A program made the position numbers and the translations under genes. DNA of 64,000 bases. Origin: Anaerolineae bacterium (lineage in GTDB: Bacteria > Chloroflexota > Anaerolineae > Aggregatilineales > Phototrophicaceae). The stretch covers positions 62,001 to 126,000 of the forward strand of contig JAFLCG010000004.1 of the NCBI GenBank assembly GCA_017303635.1, read 5' to 3'. This document shows positions 2,919 through 35,354 of the stretch, piece after piece. Each line of letters starts with the position of its first letter. Position 1 is the stretch's first letter. A model generated the notes under the pieces. The model saw only the letters and a list, made by a program, of their open reading frames with translations, had not been told where the DNA came from and ran no database searches.

Positions 2919-3440
2919 TCATTCCGTCTTCTTCACGCGGTAGCTGGCTTGCAGGGATTTTTCCAGCAACCTGATTGCATTCTGACGGTCGTTCCAGGCT
3001 TTCAGGGCAACTTTACCTGTCCAGAAGGGAATGAATAGGCCCAGCAAAGGCAGCCAACTTTCAGTTCGAAAGTCGGTCAGCACAACGAAGATAATCGCAA
3101 TCGAGATGATCGTAAGGGCAGTATAGATGACCAGCGTTGGGCCAGAATATAAACTGCCGAACACCAGGCTGCTCCCAGCGGCATCATTGCGGTCAATGTT
3201 GCCAACAATCGTAACGCGACTGACCTTACTTATTTGACCAAACCGCGAGACAATTTCGCGTTGAAACTCAAGGCTGAATTGGTAGCGGTATTCCTCAAGG
3301 CTCAGGACTTTATTGGCCTGCCCAATCCACTGCCCCTCAACCACGCGCAAGTTATTCAGTTCCTGAATGCGCCTGGCACATTCTGCCGGATTCATGTCCG
3401 AGACAAATTTGAAGTCGTAGACTTTCAATCGCTCCTCCAT
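2919..3440 (-). CDS. Small two-TM membrane protein paired with SUKH
   Basis: Family not recognised. The frame extends upstream to a GTG at 3560, but the ATG at 3440 (MEERLKVYDF) begins the likely folded part: ~100 cytoplasmic residues with KFVSDMNPAECARRIQELN, then two hydrophobic helices (VIYTALTIISIAIIFVVL and LPLLGLFIPFWTGKVAL) and a basic C-terminal helix (LLEKSLQASYRVKKTE). It is transcribed just ahead of the SUKH gene, so it could be an immunity or effector-linked membrane protein. No function can be assigned. It shares the lower GC of the SUKH gene. Confidence 0.6.
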   Translation of the reverse strand: MEERLKVYDFKFVSDMNPAECARRIQELNNLRVVEGQWIGQANKVLSLEEYRYQFSLEFQREIVSRFGQISKVSRVTIVGNIDRNDAAGSSLVFGSLYSGPTLVIYTALTIISIAIIFVVLTDFRTESWLPLLGLFIPFWTGKVALKAWNDRQNAIRLLEKSLQASYRVKKTE

Positions 3441-3609
3441 ACCGTTCTCTTCATTGGAGTATGGATGGTTGCCAGACGACCTTTCCTGACCATCCGTCAT
3501 TTCCCAACCCTGAATTTGTTCAGCTATTCCCGTTAAGTGATCGCATTTACTTTCTTGCACGATATACTAAATGCCACAATACTGTTTGAGCCCGATTATA
3601 CAGGGATGT

Positions 3610-4908
3610 ATGCGCGTGCCAAGCACACAACGGCGGCTCGCCGCCCTACTCATCATGTTGAACCTGCTCGCCAGCAGCGGCTTCACAGTGGCACAGGACT
3701 CGACGGCTACATTCACACCGACCTCGACCGTGACTGCCACCCAATTTCCCACCCTGAACCTGCAACTGTTCATCTCACGGGGGAGCCTGACGCTCTATAC
3801 CCCGGAGACAGTCTCACTAGCGGGCTTGACACTGGTCGCAGTCGAGCAACGCCCCTTCATCTATATCGAAGCCTTCGATGGACTATCATTAACGGGCGGC
3901 ATTGCAGCGGCAGAGAGTTGCTTCGTCCTGCGCGATCCTGCCGGAGCGGATGATCCATTGGCGGGTGCATGCCGGGAGGCTGCCACAGCCGGGCGTGTCT
4001 TTTTATTGAATATCTCCGCTGCCGACAACTTCTGGTTCGATCCCATCACCAATCAACTAAGTGCATTGGCGATCCAGCGTAGGGATAGCTTACTCCTGAC
4101 TGCAAGTGGTGTACCTGCCATCTGCCCCGGCGGTCAACCCGCCTGCGAGTTTGAGTGGCCCGTAGAAATTTTCCCGATACCAACCAGCACTCCGACTAGC
4201 GTGGTTTCTACCCCTATACCAGTCAAGCCATGTCCCAATAGCGCCCCAACACGATTGAAGATTGGCATTCATGGTCGTGTATTTACCTCGATTGCAATCA
4301 ATTTGCGAGATACACCTGTGGGTGACGTCGTTGGACAAATGCGACCAGGTGGCAACTTTGTCGTGTTAGAGGGGCCAATCTGCGGAATAGATAATATGAC
4401 TTTCTGGCTTGTGCAATACGATGACATTGTTGGATGGACTGCCGAAGGAGAAGCTGATGACTATTGGCTTGAACCTCTTTTCTTATCTGATGTAGGCCAG
4501 CCTTGCCCCAATAGTCCGCCAACCCGACTGGCAGTTGGTATGCAGGGAATTGTCTCAGATGGTGAACCTAATAGTTTGCGAGATGTGCCATCAGGAACCA
4601 TTTTTGGACAGATACCATCGGGCGGGGAATTTACGGTGATAAGCGGGCCGGAGTGTGGACGCACTGGACTTACTTTCTGGCTAGTCGAGTATAGTAGCAA
4701 TGTTGGCTGGACTGCCGAGGGTTACGGAAATACTTATTGGCTCGAACCGCTGGAAAGGGGACGTGGCTGCGGCCAACAATCGGAACAGAGGGAAACGGGA
4801 GGATATACGGCGCAGACGCCTAATCCTCCCCTACAGCTCGCTCCGGTAGGGATACTATTTTTGGCAGCGCGGCGGGTAGGGGCGACCCGCCGCGCATGGC
4901 GATGCTGA
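3610..4908 (+). CDS. Secreted protein with two SH3-like (SH3b) repeats
   Basis: The start at 3610 gives a good signal peptide (RRLAALLIMLNLLASSGFTVAQ), followed by a Thr-rich linker, a ~110-residue N-terminal beta region, a second linker (PIPTSTPTSVVSTPIP), and two ~85-residue repeats each beginning PCPNS-PTRL and containing LRDxP, G-QM/QI, FWLVxY and GWTAEG-YWLEPL. These look like bacterial SH3 modules that bind cell wall or glycans. The paired Cys in each repeat could form a disulfide. After the second repeat the frame runs into a dispersed palindromic repeat at 4797-4834, so the last ~40 residues are repeat-encoded and the natural stop was probably lost or displaced. Exported; ligand unknown. 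Confidence 0.75.
   Translation: MRVPSTQRRLAALLIMLNLLASSGFTVAQDSTATFTPTSTVTATQFPTLNLQLFISRGSLTLYTPETVSLAGLTLVAVEQRPFIYIEAFDGLSLTGGIAAAESCFVLRDPAGADDPLAGACREAATAGRVFLLNISAADNFWFDPITNQLSALAIQRRDSLLLTASGVPAICPGGQPACEFEWPVEIFPIPTSTPTSVVSTPIPVKPCPNSAPTRLKIGIHGRVFTSIAINLRDTPVGDVVGQMRPGGNFVVLEGPICGIDNMTFWLVQYDDIVGWTAEGEADDYWLEPLFLSDVGQPCPNSPPTRLAVGMQGIVSDGEPNSLRDVPSGTIFGQIPSGGEFTVISGPECGRTGLTFWLVEYSSNVGWTAEGYGNTYWLEPLERGRGCGQQSEQRETGGYTAQTPNPPLQLAPVGILFLAARRVGATRRAWRC
4797..4834 (+). repeat. Dispersed palindrome, ATATACGG-type, inside the 3' end of the SH3 gene
   Basis: Copy of the element starting GGGAGGATATACGG and ending AATCCTCCCCTAC, with related copies at 11671-11710, 21813-21852, 59669-59710 and 62299-62340. 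This is the only copy within an open reading frame. Confidence 0.75.
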
Positions 4909-4942
4909 CAATCCTGGGGACTCCGGGTAATATGGAGTCATT

Positions 4943-5974
4943 ATGATTGCAACACTGGACAACTCCCGCATTACCCGTCTGCTGCTGGTCAGTGCCTCGC
5001 TGGTGGTGGTCATCGCGGGGCTGCGCGCCTTCGCTGAACCGCTCAGCGCCTTCTTCCTGGCGGTCCTGATCGCCATCTGCGTCGCGCCGCTGCGGGCCAC
5101 CCTGCTCAAGCGGGGCGTGTCACGCGGGGTGGCGCTGGCCATCGTCCTGGTGGTCGTCATCGGGGTCGGTGCGGCGCTGGTGACCTTCATCGGCGTCTCC
5201 GCCAACCAGCTCATCCGCAAGCTGCCGGACTACGAGCAGCAAATCCAGGGCTTACAAGCCAACGTGCTGGGGCAGATCGAGCGCTATGGACTATCGGAGC
5301 AAGCCACCGAGGCCATCGAAACCTTCGACTTCCGCTCGCTCATCCCGCTGGCGGGGAATATCCTGCGTACCATCGGGGATTCACTGGGCAACGTCCTGCT
5401 GATCTTCCTGTTCCTGCTGTATATGCTGATGGACGCGCCGAATATCCCGGGTCGCTTACGCGCCGTGCTGCCCAGCGACAGCCGCTGGCTGGAGAAAGCC
5501 ACCGACTTCATCTTCAGCGTGCAGCGCTACATGATCCTGCGAACCGTCTTCGGCGTCATCATCGCTGGCTTCCAGACGGTCGTCATGCTGCTGATGGGCG
5601 TGGATTTCGCGGTGCAGTGGGGGGTGCTGGCGGTCATCACCAACTACATCCCGAATGTCGGTTTCGTGCTGGGGCTGATCCCGCCGCTGGTTGTCACGCT
5701 GCTGGAGCATGGCCCACTTGCGGCTGTGGCCCTGCTGGTGATCTACAGCCTCATCAACACCATTTTTGAGAACTTTGTCGCGCCACGCTTCATGGCGGAA
5801 GACCTGGGCATCACCAGCCTCTTCATCTTCCTATCGCTGATCTTCTGGACGTGGGTGCTGGGGGCCTCCGGCGCGCTGCTGGCCGTCCCGCTCACCCTGC
5901 TGGTGCAGATCATGCTGCTCAAGGGCGAAGATGGGGTCAAGGTCCTCAACGCCCTCATCAGCGAGAAGGATTAA
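4943..5974 (+). CDS. AI-2E family transporter (PerM/YhhT-like permease)
   Basis: A 343-residue integral membrane protein with the UPF0118/AI-2E exporter layout: two N-terminal helices (VVIAGLRAFAEPLSAFFLAVLIAI), a hydrophilic helical stretch of ~80 residues, then five or six more helices. The C-terminal half carries family-typical sequence such as ITNYIPNVGFVLGLIPP and VAPRFMAEDLGI. The family covers TqsA-type autoinducer-2 exporters and PerM-type transporters, so the true substrate is uncertain. GGAG six bases before the ATG supports the start. Monocistronic, followed by 450 bases of repeat-rich spacer. Confidence 0.85.
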   Translation: MIATLDNSRITRLLLVSASLVVVIAGLRAFAEPLSAFFLAVLIAICVAPLRATLLKRGVSRGVALAIVLVVVIGVGAALVTFIGVSANQLIRKLPDYEQQIQGLQANVLGQIERYGLSEQATEAIETFDFRSLIPLAGNILRTIGDSLGNVLLIFLFLLYMLMDAPNIPGRLRAVLPSDSRWLEKATDFIFSVQRYMILRTVFGVIIAGFQTVVMLLMGVDFAVQWGVLAVITNYIPNVGFVLGLIPPLVVTLLEHGPLAAVALLVIYSLINTIFENFVAPRFMAEDLGITSLFIFLSLIFWTWVLGASGALLAVPLTLLVQIMLLKGEDGVKVLNALISEKD

Positions 5975-27403: not shown

Positions 27404-28095
27404 ATGACGCATATTCTCCTGATCGATGATGAACGCAAATTGACTGATCCCCTGCGCGCCTCTTTTGAGCGGGCCGGCTACCAGGTGACGGTTGCCAATG
27501 AGGGTCATAGCGGGCTGAGCCTGGCGCTGGTGGAAAAGCCAGATGTGATCGTCCTGGATGTGATGATGCCCGGTCTGGATGGCTGGCAGGTGTGCCAGGC
27601 CATCCGGGCGCACTGTGCCACGCCGATTATCATGCTGACCGCCCTGGATGACAGCACCGACCGAATCAAGGGTCTGGAACTCGGCGCAGATGATTGGTCA
27701 AACCGTTCAGCTATAAGGAACTGGAAGCCCATGTGCGGGCCATGCTGCGGCGAGTCCGCATTGACCAGGGTGAGCAACTACCCCAGCGCATCAGCATCGG
27801 GGAGATCATGCTCGACTTGCAAGCGCACACGGTCACCCGCAGCGGGCAAGAGTTAGCTTTGCGTCAAAAAGAATACGAAATCCTCTCGCTGCTGATGATC
27901 AATCTGGGGAAAGTGGTCACCCGGGAACAACTCTTTGATGAGGTCTGGGGAACGGACTGGCTGGGCGATACTCGGACGCTGGATGTGCACATGAGCTGGC
28001 TGCGGGCCAAGCTGGAAACCGATCCGACCAATCCAATCTATCTGCAAACGGTTCGTGGGGTGGGTTACCGCTTTCATGACCCGGATCGGGCTTGA
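27404..28095 (+). pseudogene. OmpR/PhoB-type response regulator broken by a frameshift
   Basis: A receiver domain begins at 27404 (ILLIDDERKLTDPLRASFERAG, phosphoacceptor D52 in VIVLDVMMPGLDGW, T in IIMLTAL) and runs to GLELGADD. There the frame shifts near 27692-27697. The output continues in another frame as (V)KPFSYKELEAHVRAMLRR plus a full winged-helix domain ending TVRGVGYRFHDPDRA at 28095. An intact family member would read DDYLVKPF, so about four bases are missing. Both domains are otherwise undamaged, so this is either a recent mutation or a sequence error. The histidine kinase starts 2 bases after the stop. Confidence 0.85.
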
Positions 28096-28097
28096 GC

Positions 28098-29513
28098 ATG
28101 ATGCTGCATCGTCTGACCATTCGTCGCCGTCTGCTGGTGATTTTCATTCTGATCGCCTTTGTTGGCGGCGCAGTCCAGTTCCTGATCGCAGGCCGCCAAC
28201 TGGAAGCCGCTACGCTGGAGTTTCATCAGCACCACCTGGAAACGGATGCCCTGCTGGTTTCGACCACGTTCTCTGAACCGCTCAGTCACTTGTTGGAAGG
28301 CGAAAGCGATGACGGCCTTGGCCGAACCCTGAGCGCCCTGCAACAACAGGTGGGGCATAACTATCTGATTTTGGATATGAACCATCGGGCAATCGGTTAC
28401 ACGGCGAACAGCGGTTATCAGATGGGGGGAAAAGTCACTGTCACCCCGGAACTGACCCGGGCACGTTCGGAGGGGATTGGGGCGGATATTCGCCCGAATA
28501 GCGCCGGGGAAGCGACCCTGTATCTGGCGGTTTCCATCCAGCACGAAAGTGATATGTTGGGCTACCTGGTGCTTTCGGAGCCCATGCAACCGGCTTATGA
28601 CGATGTCAACCGGCGCTATGCGGAACTGGCCGTCGCTACGCTGCCGGTCATCGGACTGGTGATCGCGGCTTCGCTGTGGGTGTCCGGCAGTATTTCCAAA
28701 CCGATCCAACACCTCCGCAATTCCGCGCTGCTGATGGCGAAAGGCCACCTGCAAACGCGCATCCCCATCACCTCCCAGGATGAAATCGGCCAACTGGCCG
28801 AGTCGTTCAATTACATGGCCAGCCAGATCGACGCCCTGATGAAAACCCAGCGGAGCTTTGTGAGCAATGCGGCTCATGAACTGCGCACGCCTCTGATGAC
28901 GCTGAAACTGCGGGCGGAGGCGCTGGCAGAGGAGAACCTGACCAGCACGGAACGGGATACGTACTTGAACGAGATCCAGCAGGAAGTCGACCATATGGCG
29001 CGGTTGGTCTCGTCGCTGCTGATCCTGGCGCGCATTGATGAAGGTCGGCATCCGCCCGAAAAGACGACGACCGACACCGTCTCCACCCTGCATGACATCA
29101 TCCGCAACTGGCGGATTGAAGCTCAGGCCAAATGGCTGACCTTTCAGGCCGACATTGACACGAACTTACCGGAACTGCCGATGAGTCCGAATGACCTGCG
29201 GCTGGTTCTGGATAACCTGCTCTCCAACGCCATCAAATATACGCCGCAGGGCCGGGTCAGCCTCAAGGTGAGGCATCAGCACAAGACATTCAGCTTTGAA
29301 ATCAGCGATACGGGTCATGGCTTCCCCGCAGAACAGGGGCCGCGCTTGTTCGAGCGCTTTTATCGCTCGGAAACGGTACGGGCGCAGATCACAGGGTATG
29401 GACTGGGGTTATCCATCGTCAAGGCGATTGTGGATCACTACGGTGGGCGGATTGAGGCTACCAGCGAGGGAACCGGGAAAGGTGCTGTGTTCACAGTGCA
29501 CCTCCCCGGTTGA
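28098..29513 (+). CDS. Sensor histidine kinase
   Basis: 471 residues. Two TM helices (about 12-30 and VATLPVIGLVIAASLWVSGSI) flank a ~150-residue extracytoplasmic sensor. Then HAMP (PIQHLRNSALLMAKGHLQTRI), HisKA with phospho-H260 (SNAAHELRTPL), HATPase N-box LVLDNLLSNAIKYTP, G1 ISDTGHGFP, F-box FERFYRSE, G2 YGLGLSIVKAIVDHYGG. The architecture is EnvZ/PhoR-like. It follows the frameshifted regulator with 2 bases between, as a two-component operon. The signal is unknown; the matched direct repeat upstream of the ApbE operon suggests a redox or metal cue. Confidence 0.93.
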   Translation: MMLHRLTIRRRLLVIFILIAFVGGAVQFLIAGRQLEAATLEFHQHHLETDALLVSTTFSEPLSHLLEGESDDGLGRTLSALQQQVGHNYLILDMNHRAIGYTANSGYQMGGKVTVTPELTRARSEGIGADIRPNSAGEATLYLAVSIQHESDMLGYLVLSEPMQPAYDDVNRRYAELAVATLPVIGLVIAASLWVSGSISKPIQHLRNSALLMAKGHLQTRIPITSQDEIGQLAESFNYMASQIDALMKTQRSFVSNAAHELRTPLMTLKLRAEALAEENLTSTERDTYLNEIQQEVDHMARLVSSLLILARIDEGRHPPEKTTTDTVSTLHDIIRNWRIEAQAKWLTFQADIDTNLPELPMSPNDLRLVLDNLLSNAIKYTPQGRVSLKVRHQHKTFSFEISDTGHGFPAEQGPRLFERFYRSETVRAQITGYGLGLSIVKAIVDHYGGRIEATSEGTGKGAVFTVHLPG

Positions 29514-29523
29514 AGCTGTACAC

Positions 29524-30195
29524 TCAGGTTCTCGCCACGCGGGCGGGCGACTTGGTTGACCGCACGACCCGAATGCCCAGCAGCACGAGCGTGGCAGCCA
29601 TGCCCATGCCGAGCAGGATCTGAAACCCAGGCTGGGTGCCTTCGGTACCGGCAAACAGGCCATGCGCAGACACCAGAACAAAGGTGAGGTAGCTGACGTA
29701 GTGCAGCCACTTCCAGGCCTTATGCCCCATCTGTTTCTTGAACCAGAAGCTCACGGTAATGATGAGGATCCCCCAGAAGGCCAGGGTGCCCAAGCCGACC
29801 GCTTCTGGCCGATAAGGGCCAGTGAACGGCACGAACAGATCCCCCAGGGTATAGGTGAAGTAGTCATCCAGCAACAACAGCAGGGCATGCACGAGGGAGA
29901 GCAGCAGGGCCAGCCAGGAGATGGTGCTGTGCATGGTCAGGGAGACCGGCCCGGGCGACCAATCCTTGACGACCTGCGCGCTCATGAATACGCCCCAGAC
30001 CGTCGAACCCAGCAGCATCATATAGGCCACAATGCCGGATGAACGTACCAGATGCCAGGAGAGTTTGGTATCGGCCCCCAGATTGACATTGAGCGTGCCG
30101 CCCTGAACCATCATGATGACCGATACGACGATCAGCATGAGGCTGGCGATCAACACCAGCAGATCAAAGCGTGTGAGGGATTTCTCTTTGTTCAT
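29524..30195 (-). CDS. Ferric-reductase-like di-heme transmembrane protein
   Basis: 223 residues with six predicted helices. Two His pairs lie within helices, H89/H103 (SLTMHSTISWLALLLSLVH) and H165/H178 (KWLHYVSYLTFVLVSAH), at 14 and 13 residues. That is the bis-His heme spacing of ferric reductase, NOX and MsrQ/YedZ proteins, which move electrons across the membrane. It lacks the FAD/NAD domain of full ferric reductases, so electrons must come from a partner. It is the last gene of the ApbE/SH3 operon (63-bp gap). Whether iron, quinone or sulfoxide chemistry is served is not decidable. Confidence 0.82.
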   Translation of the reverse strand: MNKEKSLTRFDLLVLIASLMLIVVSVIMMVQGGTLNVNLGADTKLSWHLVRSSGIVAYMMLLGSTVWGVFMSAQVVKDWSPGPVSLTMHSTISWLALLLSLVHALLLLLDDYFTYTLGDLFVPFTGPYRPEAVGLGTLAFWGILIITVSFWFKKQMGHKAWKWLHYVSYLTFVLVSAHGLFAGTEGTQPGFQILLGMGMAATLVLLGIRVVRSTKSPARVART

Positions 30196-30258
30196 GAGGA
30201 TGCAATTCCTTGAAGGAGGCTGCCCGGCCAGAATTTGGCCGGGCAGTCAATGGATGGC

Positions 30259-31383
30259 TTAATCGTCGTCGTCGTTCTCATGTTCACTTTCTTCATGGGA
30301 TTCACCGTGATCGTCATCATCGTCGTCATGGTAGCTACCCGATTGAGCGGATTGCCCCGGTGAGGTAATGATGATCGAGGCCGGTTGGGCATCCCGCAGA
30401 GGGATATTGAAGGTCGGCAATTGATCGCACGCGCCATCCATCTGCACATTGCCACTGGCAACCCAAGCAGAGGCACCCTCACCCGTGGCGACCACCACCC
30501 AGTTGTTTTCCGGATTGTGCCCACCGACCACAAAATTCTGATCACGGTAGCCGTAGCCGAGGACGGTATAGCCGGTACCGGGGCCGCTGCGCAGATTCAC
30601 CGAACTGACGCTGATTCTGGCGTTACACGCCGCAGCCGTGCTGGTGTTCGCGACCGTCGTGACGGGACTTTCGGGCATTTGCATGAGGCTGATGCCAGCA
30701 TCGTTGGCCGAAACCAAGCGTACCCCGACGATGGCATCCTGCTGGACGTTCGTCCCCAGGAGTGTGAGTTGGTAGAGACCCGGATCGACCAACAGGTTCA
30801 TCCCATCGACAATCCCGCCAACCGATTCCGCCATGACGAAGCCAGATGTATCGACCAGTTGAGCCGTCGCCCCGACGCCGGGGAAAGTGGCGGTGATCAG
30901 CCCGGGCGAGGCCGCCGGAACCAATAAATTGATGGTATCGCCCGGGTGGTCGGTATTCAGGGAGAGGAGGACTTCCTGGCTGGTTTCCAGCGATAGACCG
31001 GAAATCAGATTTGTGCTTCCGGGCAACGCCAGTTCCGGTAAGGAGATCACACGCACCGAAGCCATTGTCACCCCCGGAAGGCGTTCAACGGTTAAGGTAT
31101 GGGAACCGCTGTTCGGCGCGATATTCAAGGCCAACCCGTGCAGGCGGGCATCCGCCGCTTCAAATACGATGTTGCCGCTGGCATCCGCCAGGCGGACGGC
31201 TGCCCCGCTGAAATCCAGCGCCACCGTCCCGGTGGTATCCGCAGGCAGGGTGATGGCGACGTCAATCGCCGGGGTGGAGTCATTCAGGGTGATGACATCA
31301 GCGGTATTCTGAGCCAGGGTGGGCAGTACCGTCGCGAGGCTGAGTATGATGAGCGCAGCTATTGTGAGAGACAGGCGTTTCAT
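30259..31383 (-). CDS. Secreted SH3 protein with acidic His-containing tail
   Basis: 374 residues. Signal peptide MKRLSLTIAALIILSLATVLPTLAQ, two beta-rich regions of about 100 residues, an SH3 module (VSSVNLRSGPGTGYTVLGYGYRD to VASGNVQMDG), and a C-terminal tail of Asp, Glu and His (YHDDDDDDHGESHEESE and onward). The tail is a plausible divalent or ferric ion binder. Its ATG overlaps the ApbE stop (ATGA at 31380-31383), so expression is coupled. A DFSGAA sequence resembles, but does not match, the D-x-x-S/T-G-A-T flavinylation site. Extracytoplasmic. Role in metal capture for the di-heme reductase is inferred. Confidence 0.65.
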   Translation of the reverse strand: MKRLSLTIAALIILSLATVLPTLAQNTADVITLNDSTPAIDVAITLPADTTGTVALDFSGAAVRLADASGNIVFEAADARLHGLALNIAPNSGSHTLTVERLPGVTMASVRVISLPELALPGSTNLISGLSLETSQEVLLSLNTDHPGDTINLLVPAASPGLITATFPGVGATAQLVDTSGFVMAESVGGIVDGMNLLVDPGLYQLTLLGTNVQQDAIVGVRLVSANDAGISLMQMPESPVTTVANTSTAAACNARISVSSVNLRSGPGTGYTVLGYGYRDQNFVVGGHNPENNWVVVATGEGASAWVASGNVQMDGACDQLPTFNIPLRDAQPASIIITSPGQSAQSGSYHDDDDDDHGESHEESEHENDDDD

Positions 31384-32306
31384 GCAAGGTTCCTTTCTGA
31401 AACACGTGCTAAAAATTGTGGACTGGTGAGCACCGCTCCATCGCGGCGGACCACCAGCCCGGAGGCATCCCAGCGCGTTTGCAGCCAGTTGAGACCTGCA
31501 TCCGCGCCGCGCAGCAAGACGGCTTTGGCGTAAGCTTCGGCGGTGGTCGCCGTGGGATGATGGATGGTCACCGTCAAGACATCGGTATTCGCCGATTTCC
31601 CGGTGAAGGGATCCATAATGTGATGGTGCGGACGGCCATCCCGCCCCTGCCAACGGCGGAAGTCCACGCCGCTGGTCACCAGACTGGCATCCCGCAACCA
31701 CAACGTAGCCAGCGGCGAGTCCCCAAAAGGATCGGCCACCTGCACTTCCCAACCCGGTAAATCAGCGGGCGCACCCCGCCCAACCAGGTCGCCGCCGATA
31801 TTGACCAGGCAGGCTCCGTAGGGTGCCAGATCATTCGCCAGGTTTTCGGCAGTCCAGCCTTTGGCGATCCCGCCCAGATCCAGGGCGCTCCCCGCTGGGA
31901 TGCGTACCTCCCGCGTAGCAAGCCGAATTTCAATCGCTCGCCAGTCCATCGCGGGAACGGGTTCGGTGGTGGGTGGTTGGCTGACCGCCTCAAAGGAACG
32001 GTCATAACCACTGGCCAGGAGCGCTGGCAGGATCAACGGGTTAAACGCGCCATCGGTCAGGCGAGCCGCGTGCTTGGCCGCCTGAATATTGGCAAAGAGC
32101 ACCTCACCAAGCGCGACCCATTCGCCCGCCTGTGCATTCAAGTGCATCAGTTCGCTGGCGGGGCGGAAACGGGACAAGCGCGCTTCGACCGCTTCCATCC
32201 AGTCCGGCAGGGCCTTGAGCAGCGTGTGACCATCGGCTGCGGTTTCTAGTTGAACGGAAACGGCACACCCCATGGCCCGCCAGGCGAGATGAAACAGGGA
32301 TTTCAT
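31380..32306 (-). CDS. apbE: FAD:protein FMN transferase
   Basis: 308 residues. ApbE family signatures: MEAVEARLSRFRPASELMHLNA, the ALDLGGIAKGWTAENLA core, LVNIGGDLVGRG, and HHHIMDPFTGKSANTDVLTVTIHH with the metal-binding Asp/Thr. It transfers FMN from FAD to a Thr/Ser in exported proteins. No obvious lipobox or signal segment is seen at the start (MKSLFHLAWRAMGCAVSV), so location is uncertain. It is the second gene of a unit bound by ATGA overlaps on both sides. No canonical FMN-binding (FMN_bind) partner gene is in the operon; its target may be elsewhere or in an atypical protein here. Confidence 0.92.
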   Translation of the reverse strand: MKSLFHLAWRAMGCAVSVQLETAADGHTLLKALPDWMEAVEARLSRFRPASELMHLNAQAGEWVALGEVLFANIQAAKHAARLTDGAFNPLILPALLASGYDRSFEAVSQPPTTEPVPAMDWRAIEIRLATREVRIPAGSALDLGGIAKGWTAENLANDLAPYGACLVNIGGDLVGRGAPADLPGWEVQVADPFGDSPLATLWLRDASLVTSGVDFRRWQGRDGRPHHHIMDPFTGKSANTDVLTVTIHHPTATTAEAYAKAVLLRGADAGLNWLQTRWDASGLVVRRDGAVLTSPQFLARVSERNLA

Positions 32307-32710
32307 CGGCTGGAATTGCTCGATTGGGTCACTGGCTGCTGCACAATGATGGGTGCAGGCGCGCTGATCTGCGACGGGGCGGGCGGTTGAATAGCTGCCG
32401 GGGCAGCGGCCTGCGGCGCGGTGTTCACCACTGGCTGAGGCTGCTGACCGCCGTGCCGCAGGATGATGATGCTGGGGGCAGCCTGCTGAATGACCAGATT
32501 GGGCGCCGCCTGCTGGATCTGTGCGGCGGTCGCTTCAACCGCAACGGGATTTTCGGCTACGGCTTGCGGCGAAGGCGTGAGCAATTGCTGCAGGCGGGTC
32601 GCATCCAGCATCGCCAGGTTTTGCGCGCCCACGAACGTCGCAATCGTGGCGCTGGTGACGAGCGCGCTTCTGACCAGCAGTTTACGCGTACGGTCATTGT
32701 TGTTTGCCAT
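32303..32710 (-). CDS. Small membrane-anchored Gln/Ala/Pro-rich protein
   Basis: 135 residues from the ATG at 32710 (MANNNDRTRK), which has AGAGGA upstream; the frame reaches an upstream ATG at 32749. A single N-terminal TM/signal segment (LLVRSALVTSATIATFVGAQ) is followed by a low-complexity extracytoplasmic part rich in Gln, Ala, Pro and Val (QQAAPNLVIQQAAPSIIIL and PVVNTAPQAAAPAAIQP). It opens the ApbE operon and overlaps apbE by ATGA. Not a recognised family. It could be an exported scaffold, but no flavinylation motif (D-x-x-S/T-G-A-T) is visible in it. Confidence 0.6.
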   Translation of the reverse strand: MANNNDRTRKLLVRSALVTSATIATFVGAQNLAMLDATRLQQLLTPSPQAVAENPVAVEATAAQIQQAAPNLVIQQAAPSIIILRHGGQQPQPVVNTAPQAAAPAAIQPPAPSQISAPAPIIVQQPVTQSSNSSR

Positions 32711-32815: not shown

Positions 32816-32963
32816 GGAGCGTACTGAGTTTCCGGTGGGCGATTGCAACCGGTGGAGCGAGTCTGCGTATCATGTTCTGTATTCGTAATGTGTCCGCAGC
32901 ATCAGCCGGCAGGTATAATGAATTGGATTCACTGTATAACTGTCATTGTGTAAGGATTATCGT

Positions 32964-35354
32964 TTGCCATCGCCATCACACCTCACCGGGTTGAACGCCG
33001 CCGAAGTGGCCGAGCGCATCCGCCGGGGGGAAACCAACGCCTTCAAAGCCCGCGTGGGCCGTTCCTACTGGGACATCATCCGCGACAACGTTTTCAATCT
33101 GTTCAATATCGTGTTGTTCACCTTGCTGATTATCGTGGTCATCATGGGGGATTACGCCCCGGCGATCTTCGCCGGGTTAAGCGTGGTCAGCAACAGTATT
33201 CTGGGCAGCTTTCAGGAGATCAGCGCCAAGCGCAAGCTCGACCGACTGGCAGCGCTCAACGCCTCGACCGTCAAGGTCATCCGGGAGGGTGTGCGGCAGG
33301 AAGTGGCGATCAGCGCGGTGGTCAAGGACGACCTGATTCCGATTGAGCCGGGTGACCGGCTGGTGGTGGATGGGCGCATCCTGCAGGCCGACGCGCTGGA
33401 GATGGACGAATCCCAACTCACGGGCGAATCCGACGCCGTGCTGAAAGAGATTGACTCGGCAGTATCCTCCGGCTCGTTCTGTATTGCCGGAACAGGTGTA
33501 ATGGTTGCGACTCAGGTCGGCAAGAACAGCACCATCAACCAGCTTTCCAGCATTGCCAAAGCCTACCGTAACGTCAAAACCCCCACGCAGAAACGCATCG
33601 ACTCGATTGTCGAAATCACCGTCATCATCATGATTATCCTCGTGCCGATGCTGTTCATCGCCGGGTGGTTGAGCCAGCAGCCGTTCCTCGAAATCGTGAA
33701 AAATCTGGTGGTGTTTGTCTCCAGCATTGTCCCGCAGGGGTTGGTGCTGGTGGCTGTCCTCTCGCTGACCATCGGCGCGATCAGCATCAGCCGCCATCAG
33801 ACGCTCATCCAGCGCGTGAACGCCGTCGAGTCGATGGCGAATGTGACGGTGCTGTGCTTCGACAAGACGGGCACACTGACCCAGAACCAACTGAAAGTGA
33901 TCGACCTCAAGCCGCTGAATGGGGTCAGTGAGAAAAGCATCCGCGAGCAGTTGAAGCTCTACACCGAGGCGCTGGCGCACCGCAATAAAACCGCCCACGC
34001 CGTCGCGGATTACTGTGCGACCACGCCGTCGCTCAACGGCTCTACGCCGCCCAAGTTGAAAGAGATTCCATTTAGCTCTGCCCGTAAGTGGGGCGCGGTC
34101 GTCTTCGAGCAGGAGACGTTCATCATGGGTGCGCCGGAGCGCGTGCTGCGCTCTGCCGGTGCCAGCGCAGCGATTGCGGAAGCCGAGCAGCTTTCGACCC
34201 AGGGGCTGCGCGTGCTGGCCTTCGCCCGAACTGCTGCGGCACCCATCGATGGGATTATTCAGGATGCCGAACCGCTGGCGCTGGTCATTTTGAGCGATCA
34301 GGTGCGCCCGGATATTCAGGCCACGCTGCAATCGTTCCGCGATCAGGACGTGCGGCTGAAGGTCATCTCCGGGGATAACCTGGAAACCGTCAAGGCGATT
34401 GCCCTGCAAGCCGGGATGCCCATCGAGCGCGCTTACACCGGTGAGCAGCTCGAAGCCATGAATGAAGCTGATTTTGTCTCGGCGGTGCAGCAGGGTGATC
34501 TGTTCGCCCGCATCGAGCCGGATACCAAGCGGCGCATCATCGCCTCGCTCAAGGGGGCGGGCGAGTATGTGGCGATGGTCGGCGACGGAGTCAACGATGT
34601 CCCTGCGCTGAAAGAGGCGCATCTGGCAGTGGTCATGAATGACGGCGCACAGATCAGCAAGGATGTGGGCGATATTGTGCTGCTGAACAATGCCATGTCC
34701 ACGCTGCCGCTAGCCTTCGCCGAAGGGCGCGAAATCACCCAGACGATCTTCGCCACGACCAAGCTGTTCCTGGCCAAGAACTTCTACAACATCGCCCTGA
34801 TCTTCTTCATCGGCTTTATGCTGCTGCCCTTCCCGACCACGCCGGTGCAGATTAGCTGGATCACCTTCGGCACCGTCAATATCCCGGCGACGCTGATCGC
34901 CTTCAAAATCCTGCGCCCGTCGTATATGAAACAGTTCCGGCGGGACGTGATGGATTACGTGCTGATCGCAGGCATGTCCGGCGCGACCATGCTGGCCGTG
35001 CTGTTCGTCATCGCCTACTTCGGCACCAACAGCGATTTCTATGCGGCCCGGAGCGCCGTCACCATGTACATCGCGCTCTACGGCATCCTCATCTTCTGGC
35101 ACATCCACGATATTGATATTCTGGATACGCGCAGCATGATCCGGGGCTGGAAGCTGGTGACCCTGGGCGTGATCCTGACTGGGCTGACCATGATCGTGCC
35201 GTTCATCGTGCCGGAGCCGTTCCAGTTTGTGCCGCCTGCGCCGATGATCTGGGTCGCGATTATGGCGACCTTCCTCATCACGGCCATTCTGGTCACGACA
35301 CAGGTGCGTTCACGCCATCTGACCAAGCAGTTGTGGCAGATCTTTGATCCGTAA
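32964..35354 (+). CDS. Cation-transporting P-type ATPase (CtpE-like)
   Basis: About 796 residues from a TTG at 32964, which has AAGGA seven bases upstream; the in-frame TTG at 32946 is less well supported. Features: actuator TGES (LTGESDA), catalytic D300 in DKTGTLT, VGDGVNDVPALK hinge, six or more C-terminal TM helices (FYNIALIFFIGFMLLP onward). The M4 motif is VPQGL (near 257) rather than PEGL; PQGL-type pumps include actinobacterial CtpE, a Ca2+ ATPase. No N-terminal metal-binding domain. Substrate (Ca2+, Mg2+ or other) is uncertain. It is divergent from the ApbE operon. Confidence 0.85.
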   Translation: MPSPSHLTGLNAAEVAERIRRGETNAFKARVGRSYWDIIRDNVFNLFNIVLFTLLIIVVIMGDYAPAIFAGLSVVSNSILGSFQEISAKRKLDRLAALNASTVKVIREGVRQEVAISAVVKDDLIPIEPGDRLVVDGRILQADALEMDESQLTGESDAVLKEIDSAVSSGSFCIAGTGVMVATQVGKNSTINQLSSIAKAYRNVKTPTQKRIDSIVEITVIIMIILVPMLFIAGWLSQQPFLEIVKNLVVFVSSIVPQGLVLVAVLSLTIGAISISRHQTLIQRVNAVESMANVTVLCFDKTGTLTQNQLKVIDLKPLNGVSEKSIREQLKLYTEALAHRNKTAHAVADYCATTPSLNGSTPPKLKEIPFSSARKWGAVVFEQETFIMGAPERVLRSAGASAAIAEAEQLSTQGLRVLAFARTAAAPIDGIIQDAEPLALVILSDQVRPDIQATLQSFRDQDVRLKVISGDNLETVKAIALQAGMPIERAYTGEQLEAMNEADFVSAVQQGDLFARIEPDTKRRIIASLKGAGEYVAMVGDGVNDVPALKEAHLAVVMNDGAQISKDVGDIVLLNNAMSTLPLAFAEGREITQTIFATTKLFLAKNFYNIALIFFIGFMLLPFPTTPVQISWITFGTVNIPATLIAFKILRPSYMKQFRRDVMDYVLIAGMSGATMLAVLFVIAYFGTNSDFYAARSAVTMYIALYGILIFWHIHDIDILDTRSMIRGWKLVTLGVILTGLTMIVPFIVPEPFQFVPPAPMIWVAIMATFLITAILVTTQVRSRHLTKQLWQIFDP

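Follow-up and report, generated by a model that had tools for sequence, protein, structure and literature searches.

An ApbE/ferric-reductase-like operon of an Anaerolineae bacterium and a candidate class of tail-flavinylated ApbE substrates

Results and discussion

The stretch analysed here (hereafter the window) comprises 64,000 nucleotides of an Anaerolineae bacterium (assembly GCA_017303635.1, contig JAFLCG010000004.1, positions 62,001 to 126,000) and contains a four-gene operon encoding a small membrane-anchored Gln/Pro protein, an ApbE-family enzyme that transfers flavin mononucleotide (FMN) from flavin adenine dinucleotide (FAD) to proteins, an exported SH3 protein with an Asp/Glu/His tail and a ferric-reductase-like membrane protein. 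The operon is a variant of the MsrQ-like flavinylation clusters, an already known kind, and very probably acts as an MsrQ-like transmembrane electron-transfer system. Within this kind it offers a candidate new class of ApbE substrate. The small protein has about an even chance of being the substrate of ApbE through its C-terminal tail. Somewhat more tentatively, we propose that proteins of this sort may form a phylogenetically broad class lacking a folded flavin domain, in which a Ser/Thr C-terminal peptide is flavinylated by a cytosolic variant ApbE. It is proposed with the same reserve, just short of even confidence, that this class couples di-haem proteins of the NOX/STEAP type to extracytoplasmic acceptors across Chloroflexota, Actinomycetota, Bacillota, Deinococcota and Pseudomonadota.

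The small protein and its relatives across phyla

The small protein starts with a basic stretch, followed by a single weakly hydrophobic helix (SALVTSATIATFVGAQNLAML), an Ala/Pro/Gln linker and an SNSSR C-terminus, and no Pfam or NCBIfam family matched it. Its topology, like the topologies and signal peptides given below, was judged by hydropathy and start positions and not by a dedicated predictor. Among the orthologues of 22 loci the residues R14, T22, A24, G28, A29, Q30, L32, D36, S133 and R135 are invariant or nearly so. The SSR ending is not a by-product of the overlap with the following gene, because an S-[ST]-R ending survives in loci without overlap or ApbE (L058, L128, L136). Tat export of the protein is not claimed, its N-terminus being weakly Tat-like in Aggregatilineales and not in other clades.

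Members of the reductase family were detected in 203 of the 400 Chloroflexota genomes sampled, and 40 of these loci, taken as the best-scoring reductase matches, were read with their flanks. In nearly all of them, ApbE or the reductase is preceded by a short anchored protein that has a single hydrophobic helix at its N-terminus, a linker of Pro, Ala, Ser, Thr, Val and Gln and a distinctive C-terminus (TRSSR, TQSSR, TKSSR, RTRGS, RTRAS, KTGGS, TGSSKP, TQSGK and similar). The endings ARTRGS, ARTRSSQ, RSAGS, HTAAS, TTKGS and SKASGG were observed in plasmid-borne loci of Actinomycetota, Bacillota, Deinococcota and Pseudomonadota; the Deinococcus and Streptomyces versions end in TRGS and TRSGGS. 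Altogether, the arrangement was seen at about 67 ApbE/ferric-reductase loci, drawn from five phyla: next to ApbE or the reductase is a protein anchored by its N-terminus, in which a Pro/Ala/Ser/Thr/Gln linker leads to a terminal [ST]-x-[GAS]-S or S-S-R (TRSSR, TRGS, TRAS, SAGS). These endings resemble in sequence the ApbE site [ST]-G-A-[ST]. An automatic rule was also applied, by which the most hydrophobic open reading frame (ORF) ending near the start of ApbE or the reductase was the first choice. Of the 75 first-choice ORFs, 50 had the motif [ST]-x-[GAST]-S near the C-terminus; with shuffled linkers the number was 3.6 ± 1.8 (maximum 10), and the background was 225 among all 7322 ORFs. Because the pattern was already known when the rule was drawn up, this count is a strong description and not a pre-registered test.

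In four loci of one Chloroflexota family (L177, L182, L184 and L188) the tail ends not in S-S-R but in T/S-Q-S-G, a few further residues and Pro, a clade-specific version.

Conservation of the operon

All four genes lie on the minus strand (Table 1), in the order small protein, ApbE, SH3 protein and reductase, with the first two pairs of neighbours overlapping by ATGA (32303-32306 and 31380-31383) and 63 intergenic bases separating the third. Both the order and the overlaps had been described, with matching coordinates, in an original prediction made from the sequence of the window alone, which had also looked to conserved synteny in other Chloroflexota. This synteny is strong: about 23 strong orthologues of the SH3 protein were recovered when 98 genomes from the family of the window were queried with it, and the four-gene order is conserved at about 24 loci, spread over about 22 genomes of the family, so the arrangement is not due to chance. 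The named relatives carrying the operon are metagenome-assembled genomes (MAGs) of Anaerolineae/Aggregatilineales, and most of the genomes examined in this work are MAGs. The ACE_CHL12 genome has two reduced versions, one with small protein, ApbE and reductase (L128) and the other with small protein, SH3 protein and reductase (L136). In six genomes an anchored mono-haem c-type cytochrome (Haem_bd, PF14376, CADCHSNET) is inserted between the SH3 gene and the reductase (L042, L045, L046, L047, L057 and L063), and two of these cytochromes end in an acidic tail.

Table 1. Features of the operon and its regulatory neighbours (positions in the window)
Feature	Positions	Strand	Remarks
Small membrane-anchored Gln/Pro protein, 135 aa	32303-32710	-	Candidate ApbE substrate (tethered flavin carrier)
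S-N-S-S-R tail of the small protein	32306-32320	-	Proposed flavinylation site, degenerate [ST]-G-A-[ST]
ApbE-family FAD:protein FMN transferase	31380-32306	-	PF02424, E = 4e-52, 177.8 bits
Exported SH3 protein with Asp/Glu/His tail	30259-31383	-	SH3_3 at 25.8 bits, just below cut-off; SH3_4 also matched
Disordered acidic tail of the SH3 protein	30262-30336	-	Last 25 residues; pLDDT (predicted local distance difference test) about 45-50
Ferric-reductase-like membrane protein	29524-30195	-	Ferric_reduct PF01794, 26.7 bits (cut-off 28)
Histidine kinase (HAMP, HisKA, HATPase by Pfam)	28092-29513	+	Convergent; probable operon regulator
OmpR-type response regulator gene	27404-28095	+	Frameshift near 27690 in the assembly; orthologues intact in relatives

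Search for a canonical substrate

An FMN_bind-domain substrate is typical of MsrQ-like clusters (PMC8238504). No FMN_bind domain was found in the operon, for which the statement of the original prediction that a canonical FMN-binding partner is missing was therefore right. The window's genome does encode one FMN_bind protein elsewhere, on contig C23, in a cluster (L038, C23:335000-346000, approximately 3364-5954) formed by a histidine-rich multi-helix membrane protein, the FMN_bind protein and a D-x3-T-type ApbE. The discovery of an ApbE target in an unrelated locus had been named beforehand as an argument against the original prediction; such a target exists, but it has its own ApbE beside it, and that the operon ApbE serves it is largely refuted. 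In the window's family, each FMN_bind gene found is accompanied by an ApbE gene of its own.

At the hidden Markov model (HMM) thresholds used, about 15 operon-bearing family genomes have the operon ApbE and no detected FMN_bind protein, and NqrB/RnfD and DUF2271 are absent from 16 of 16 operon-bearing genomes. FMN_bind occurs in only 5 of the 33 reductase-positive Chloroflexota genomes. No conserved [ST]GA[ST] was identified in the operon proteins, where SGAT or SGAS appears scattered in four SH3 orthologues and one ApbE. In the C23 protein the FMN_bind site is S-R-A-T, not S-G-A-T, and this is conserved in the family relatives; since FMN_bind paralogues of the family carry S-R-A-T, an Arg at the second position, as in TRAS, TRGS and TRSS, is natural. 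The survey of Meheust et al. (2021), which covered only genes with signal peptides, reported orphan ApbE genes without known substrates in 4% of its genomes (PMC8238504). By the criteria of that survey the operon ApbE is a true orphan, because FMN_bind is missing from the operon and from about 15 operon-bearing genomes, NqrB/RnfD and DUF2271 are absent from all 16 genomes given above, and the FMN_bind genes are paired with enzymes of their own.

ApbE and its active site

The catalytic triad of V. cholerae ApbE is Ser241/His257/Asp285 (PMC12052999). The operon ApbE, whose closest solved relative is T. pallidum Ftp (4xdt, E = 6e-30), keeps the catalytic residues Ser212 and His229 and has Glu257 and Lys261 where canonical enzymes have Asp and Thr. 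This Asp/Thr pair provides Mg ligands in Ftp. The enzyme lacks the signal peptide or lipoprotein signal typical of ApbEs, the start codon being at the start of the domain in all orthologues; cytosolic ApbEs are known. The D-x3-T pair is present in 19 of 19 FMN_bind-linked ApbEs, which form one clade (support 0.97), and in none of the 79 linked to the reductase or the tail protein, these being E+K (69), D+K (4) or N+T (6). Among the Chloroflexota genomes examined, ApbE is encoded by 33 of 33 reductase-positive and by 1 of 20 reductase-negative genomes. A third ApbE type of the family, with an N-terminal hydrophobic segment (L066-L070, L094-L098), lies near FMN_bind proteins with the canonical D-x-x-S-G-A-T (430-aa frames).

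The membrane reductase

The membrane protein, of the six-helix PF01794 type, exceeded the Pfam cut-off in the genome search (28.6). It has no flavin or NAD(P) domain. Its residues His89, His103, His165 and His178, spaced H-x13-H and H-x12-H, do not vary within the family or across five phyla and are taken as the ligands of two haem b. The AlphaFold model has a pLDDT of 86, and its top Foldseek folds are SpNOX and STEAP (E about 0.01-0.2, which is weak; probability about 1). After helix 5 there is a G183-[TS]184-[DE]185 loop, held in nearly all aligned reductases across phyla.

The SH3 protein and the possible role of metals

The SH3 protein, of which 23 sequences were aligned, consists of a Sec-type signal peptide, two PPC/collagen-binding-like beta-sandwiches, an SH3b domain and the tail SYHDDDDDDHGESHEESEHENDDDD, in which Asp, Glu and His make up 19 of 25 residues (10, 5 and 4, respectively). 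Its AlphaFold model (pLDDT 82) was matched by Foldseek to the ColG s3as3b tandem collagen-binding domain and to a PPC domain, and with such folds it was rejected as a flavoprotein. The acidic tail is kept in the family SH3 orthologues and recurs on other scaffolds, namely PepSY proteins (Psychrobacter L139; L195), Haem_bd, a Mycolicibacterium protein (L142) and several Chloroflexota proteins ending in DD; by a simple rule, the count was 13 of 40 on the same strand against 3 of 40 on the opposite one.

VIT, NRAMP or ZIP genes are found near the loci of Deinococcus, Psychrobacter, Cnuibacter, Peribacillus and one Rhodococcus, which agrees with the association of VIT published for such clusters (PMC8238504), and for this reason a metal role can reasonably be inferred for the wider ApbE/reductase group. 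Neither VIT nor NRAMP homologues turned up in the family or in the surveyed Chloroflexota loci, and a VIT link within Chloroflexota was consequently rejected. The acidic tail may plausibly capture metal, as the original prediction suggested. In a Streptomyces sp. NBC_00637 plasmid (L140, 2311-3596), two exported proteins rich in Met, Asp and Gly, with MGMGM repeats and possibly copper-binding, lie beside an ApbE/reductase pair.

Comparison with known systems

The operon is like the MsrQ-like clusters (Meheust et al., 2021, PMC8238504; Streptomyces goshikiensis plasmid L221 and Microbacterium L222) in combining Ferric_reduct (PF01794) with ApbE, in the adjacent two-component regulator, in the VIT neighbours of some loci and in an anchored low-complexity presumed flavin carrier. 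However, the FMN_bind domain is gone and the presumed carrier is reduced to an anchor, a linker and an acceptor-like C-terminal peptide; ApbE belongs to a different clade (E/D-x3-K or N-x3-T), the reductase lacks a fused NAD(P)H reductase, and an SH3/PPC protein with the Asp/Glu/His tail is added. In the canonical clusters L221, L222 and L224 (Streptomyces, Microbacterium) the FMN_bind protein is an anchor, a low-complexity linker and a domain with VSGA[ST], and the ApbEs likewise start at the domain, without signal peptide. By this analogy the small protein looks like a canonical FMN_bind carrier minus its domain.

Compared with T. pallidum Ftp (4xdt), the V. cholerae enzyme (6nxi) and Listeria FmnB, the window's ApbE shares the full-length domain, the Ser and His, DLGGIAKGW and GGD, but it lacks a signal peptide or lipobox and has Glu/Lys in place of Asp/Thr. 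The reductase has the helical bundle with two His pairs of the SpNOX/STEAP/MsrQ superfamily; unlike those proteins it is shorter, without dehydrogenase domain, and linked to ApbE and a tail protein. A further precedent is given by the laboratory C-terminal flavin tags, which ApbE accepts well, a short C-terminal peptide being sufficient for FMN attachment (PMC12052999). The laboratory tag is D-x-x-[ST]-G-A-[ST], whereas the natural tails read [ST]-x-[GAS]-S or SSR and contain basic residues.

Proposed mechanism and alternatives

The explanation that we consider best, and to which we give even chances, is that FMN tethered on the tail relays electrons of the reductase to an outside acceptor, plausibly a metal at the Asp/Glu/His tail. 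The analysis establishes the gene content, the synteny, the domain architecture, the haem ligands, the conservation of the tail, the joint occurrence of ApbE and reductase and the lack of FMN_bind. We infer tail flavinylation, the direction of electron flow and metal as the acceptor, the last of them being possible and somewhat less than an even proposition. The di-haem protein would be reduced at the inner side by the quinol pool or by an unlinked cytosolic reductase and would hand the electrons to its outer haem; FNR/2Fe-2S or NuoF-like plus ferredoxin partners are present in related loci. ApbE, without signal peptide, would attach FMN from cytosolic FAD to a Ser or Thr of the tail before or during export, and this FMN, on its flexible membrane tether, would ferry electrons from the outer haem to the extracytoplasmic acceptor. 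The SH3/PPC protein would present its acidic tail at the cell wall and most likely concentrate the acceptor, for which Fe(III) or another metal is plausible, and in the six Haem_bd-containing loci the mono-haem cytochrome would be added to the relay. The original prediction, which saw in the operon a variant form of flavin-based extracytoplasmic electron transfer, is supported by ApbE, the four-His NOX/STEAP-type protein and the synteny. It overlooked the substrate role proposed here for the small protein, the lack of a signal peptide in ApbE, the recurrence of the acidic tail on scaffolds of other kinds outside the phylum and the wide distribution of the system.

Several observations weigh against tail flavinylation. 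The tail motif is loose and was defined after the data were seen; the known motif starts with Asp and has Gly-Ala, neither of which is a constant feature of the tails, and that of the window is S-N-S-S-R. From sequence, ApbE is predicted to be cytosolic and the tail to be outside, and the loss of D-x3-T could mean altered or lost transferase activity. Substrates of the DUF3570, Flavodoxin_4, FMN_red or divergent FMN_bind kind could be encoded elsewhere in the genome. In addition, L136, L190, L191, L193, L195 and L202 have the tail protein and the reductase with no adjacent ApbE; in the four whole genomes checked among such loci, ApbE was encoded elsewhere in all four.

These last loci would also fit an explanation in which ApbE flavinylates the reductase itself, for instance at the G-[TS]-[DE] loop, leaving the small protein to serve as a subunit for assembly or docking, with a basic tail that binds the partner with the acidic one. 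The reductase is indeed the most constant partner, its loop is held across phyla, and the basic and acidic tails look complementary. We nevertheless regard this explanation as unlikely: the loop is not an ApbE-like motif, to our knowledge no covalent flavin occurs there in NOX/STEAP relatives, and the substrate in the canonical clusters is the anchored FMN_bind protein, whose place is occupied by the tail protein. It is also rather unlikely that the variant ApbE (E/K or N/T) is an FAD pyrophosphatase, a flavin-binding factor or a reductase chaperone, with an unrelated role for the tail. The active-site pair is altered in 79 of 79 reductase-linked enzymes and in 0 of 19 FMN_bind-linked ones, and T. 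pallidum Ftp, the closest solved structure, is an ApbE homologue with hydrolase activity (PMC4767422). Against this stand the conserved catalytic Ser and His and the maintenance of ApbE in all 33 reductase genomes beside a tail resembling its substrate motif.

The two other candidates are more improbable. If, along the lines of the original prediction, the relay ended in the SH3 protein, which would be flavinylated or capture metal with its acidic tail, and the small protein were incidental, the conservation of this tail in the family and its recurrence on PepSY, Haem_bd and other scaffolds would be explained; yet [ST]GA[ST] is not conserved in 25 SH3 orthologues, the modelled beta-sandwich and SH3b folds offer no apparent flavin site, and loci such as L128 lack the SH3 protein and retain the small one, so that this is hardly probable. 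Least of all do we favour the idea that ApbE serves a canonical substrate elsewhere (FMN_bind, NqrB/RnfD, DUF2271, DUF3570 or flavodoxin-like), its place in the operon reflecting only co-regulation. It agrees with the single FMN_bind protein of the window's genome, but it is opposed by the pairing of this protein with its own ApbE and by the FMN_bind, NqrB/RnfD and DUF2271 absences given above, these being the families that the search covered.

Returning to tail flavinylation, the tail proteins provide a concrete substrate candidate for a large group of orphan ApbEs. If the proposal is true, a terminal peptide alone would be enough for ApbE in nature, flavinylation could take place in the cytosol before export, making an FAD exporter unnecessary, unlike in Listeria, and tethered flavins without a protein fold could act as electron carriers. 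The recurrent association of Asp/Glu/His-rich tails with a redox system makes a role in metal reduction directly testable.

Neighbouring genes

The histidine kinase and response regulator listed in Table 1 are convergent with the operon, and a convergent pair of this type lies beside most of the orthologous operons. In the window the response regulator is split into two ORFs in different frames, four bases being apparently missing with respect to the GADDYLVKPF of the relatives; this frameshift would mark either a pseudogene or an assembly error. On the other side, the operon adjoins a divergent gene for a P-type cation ATPase (32958-35354, plus strand), a neighbour that is not kept in the relatives.

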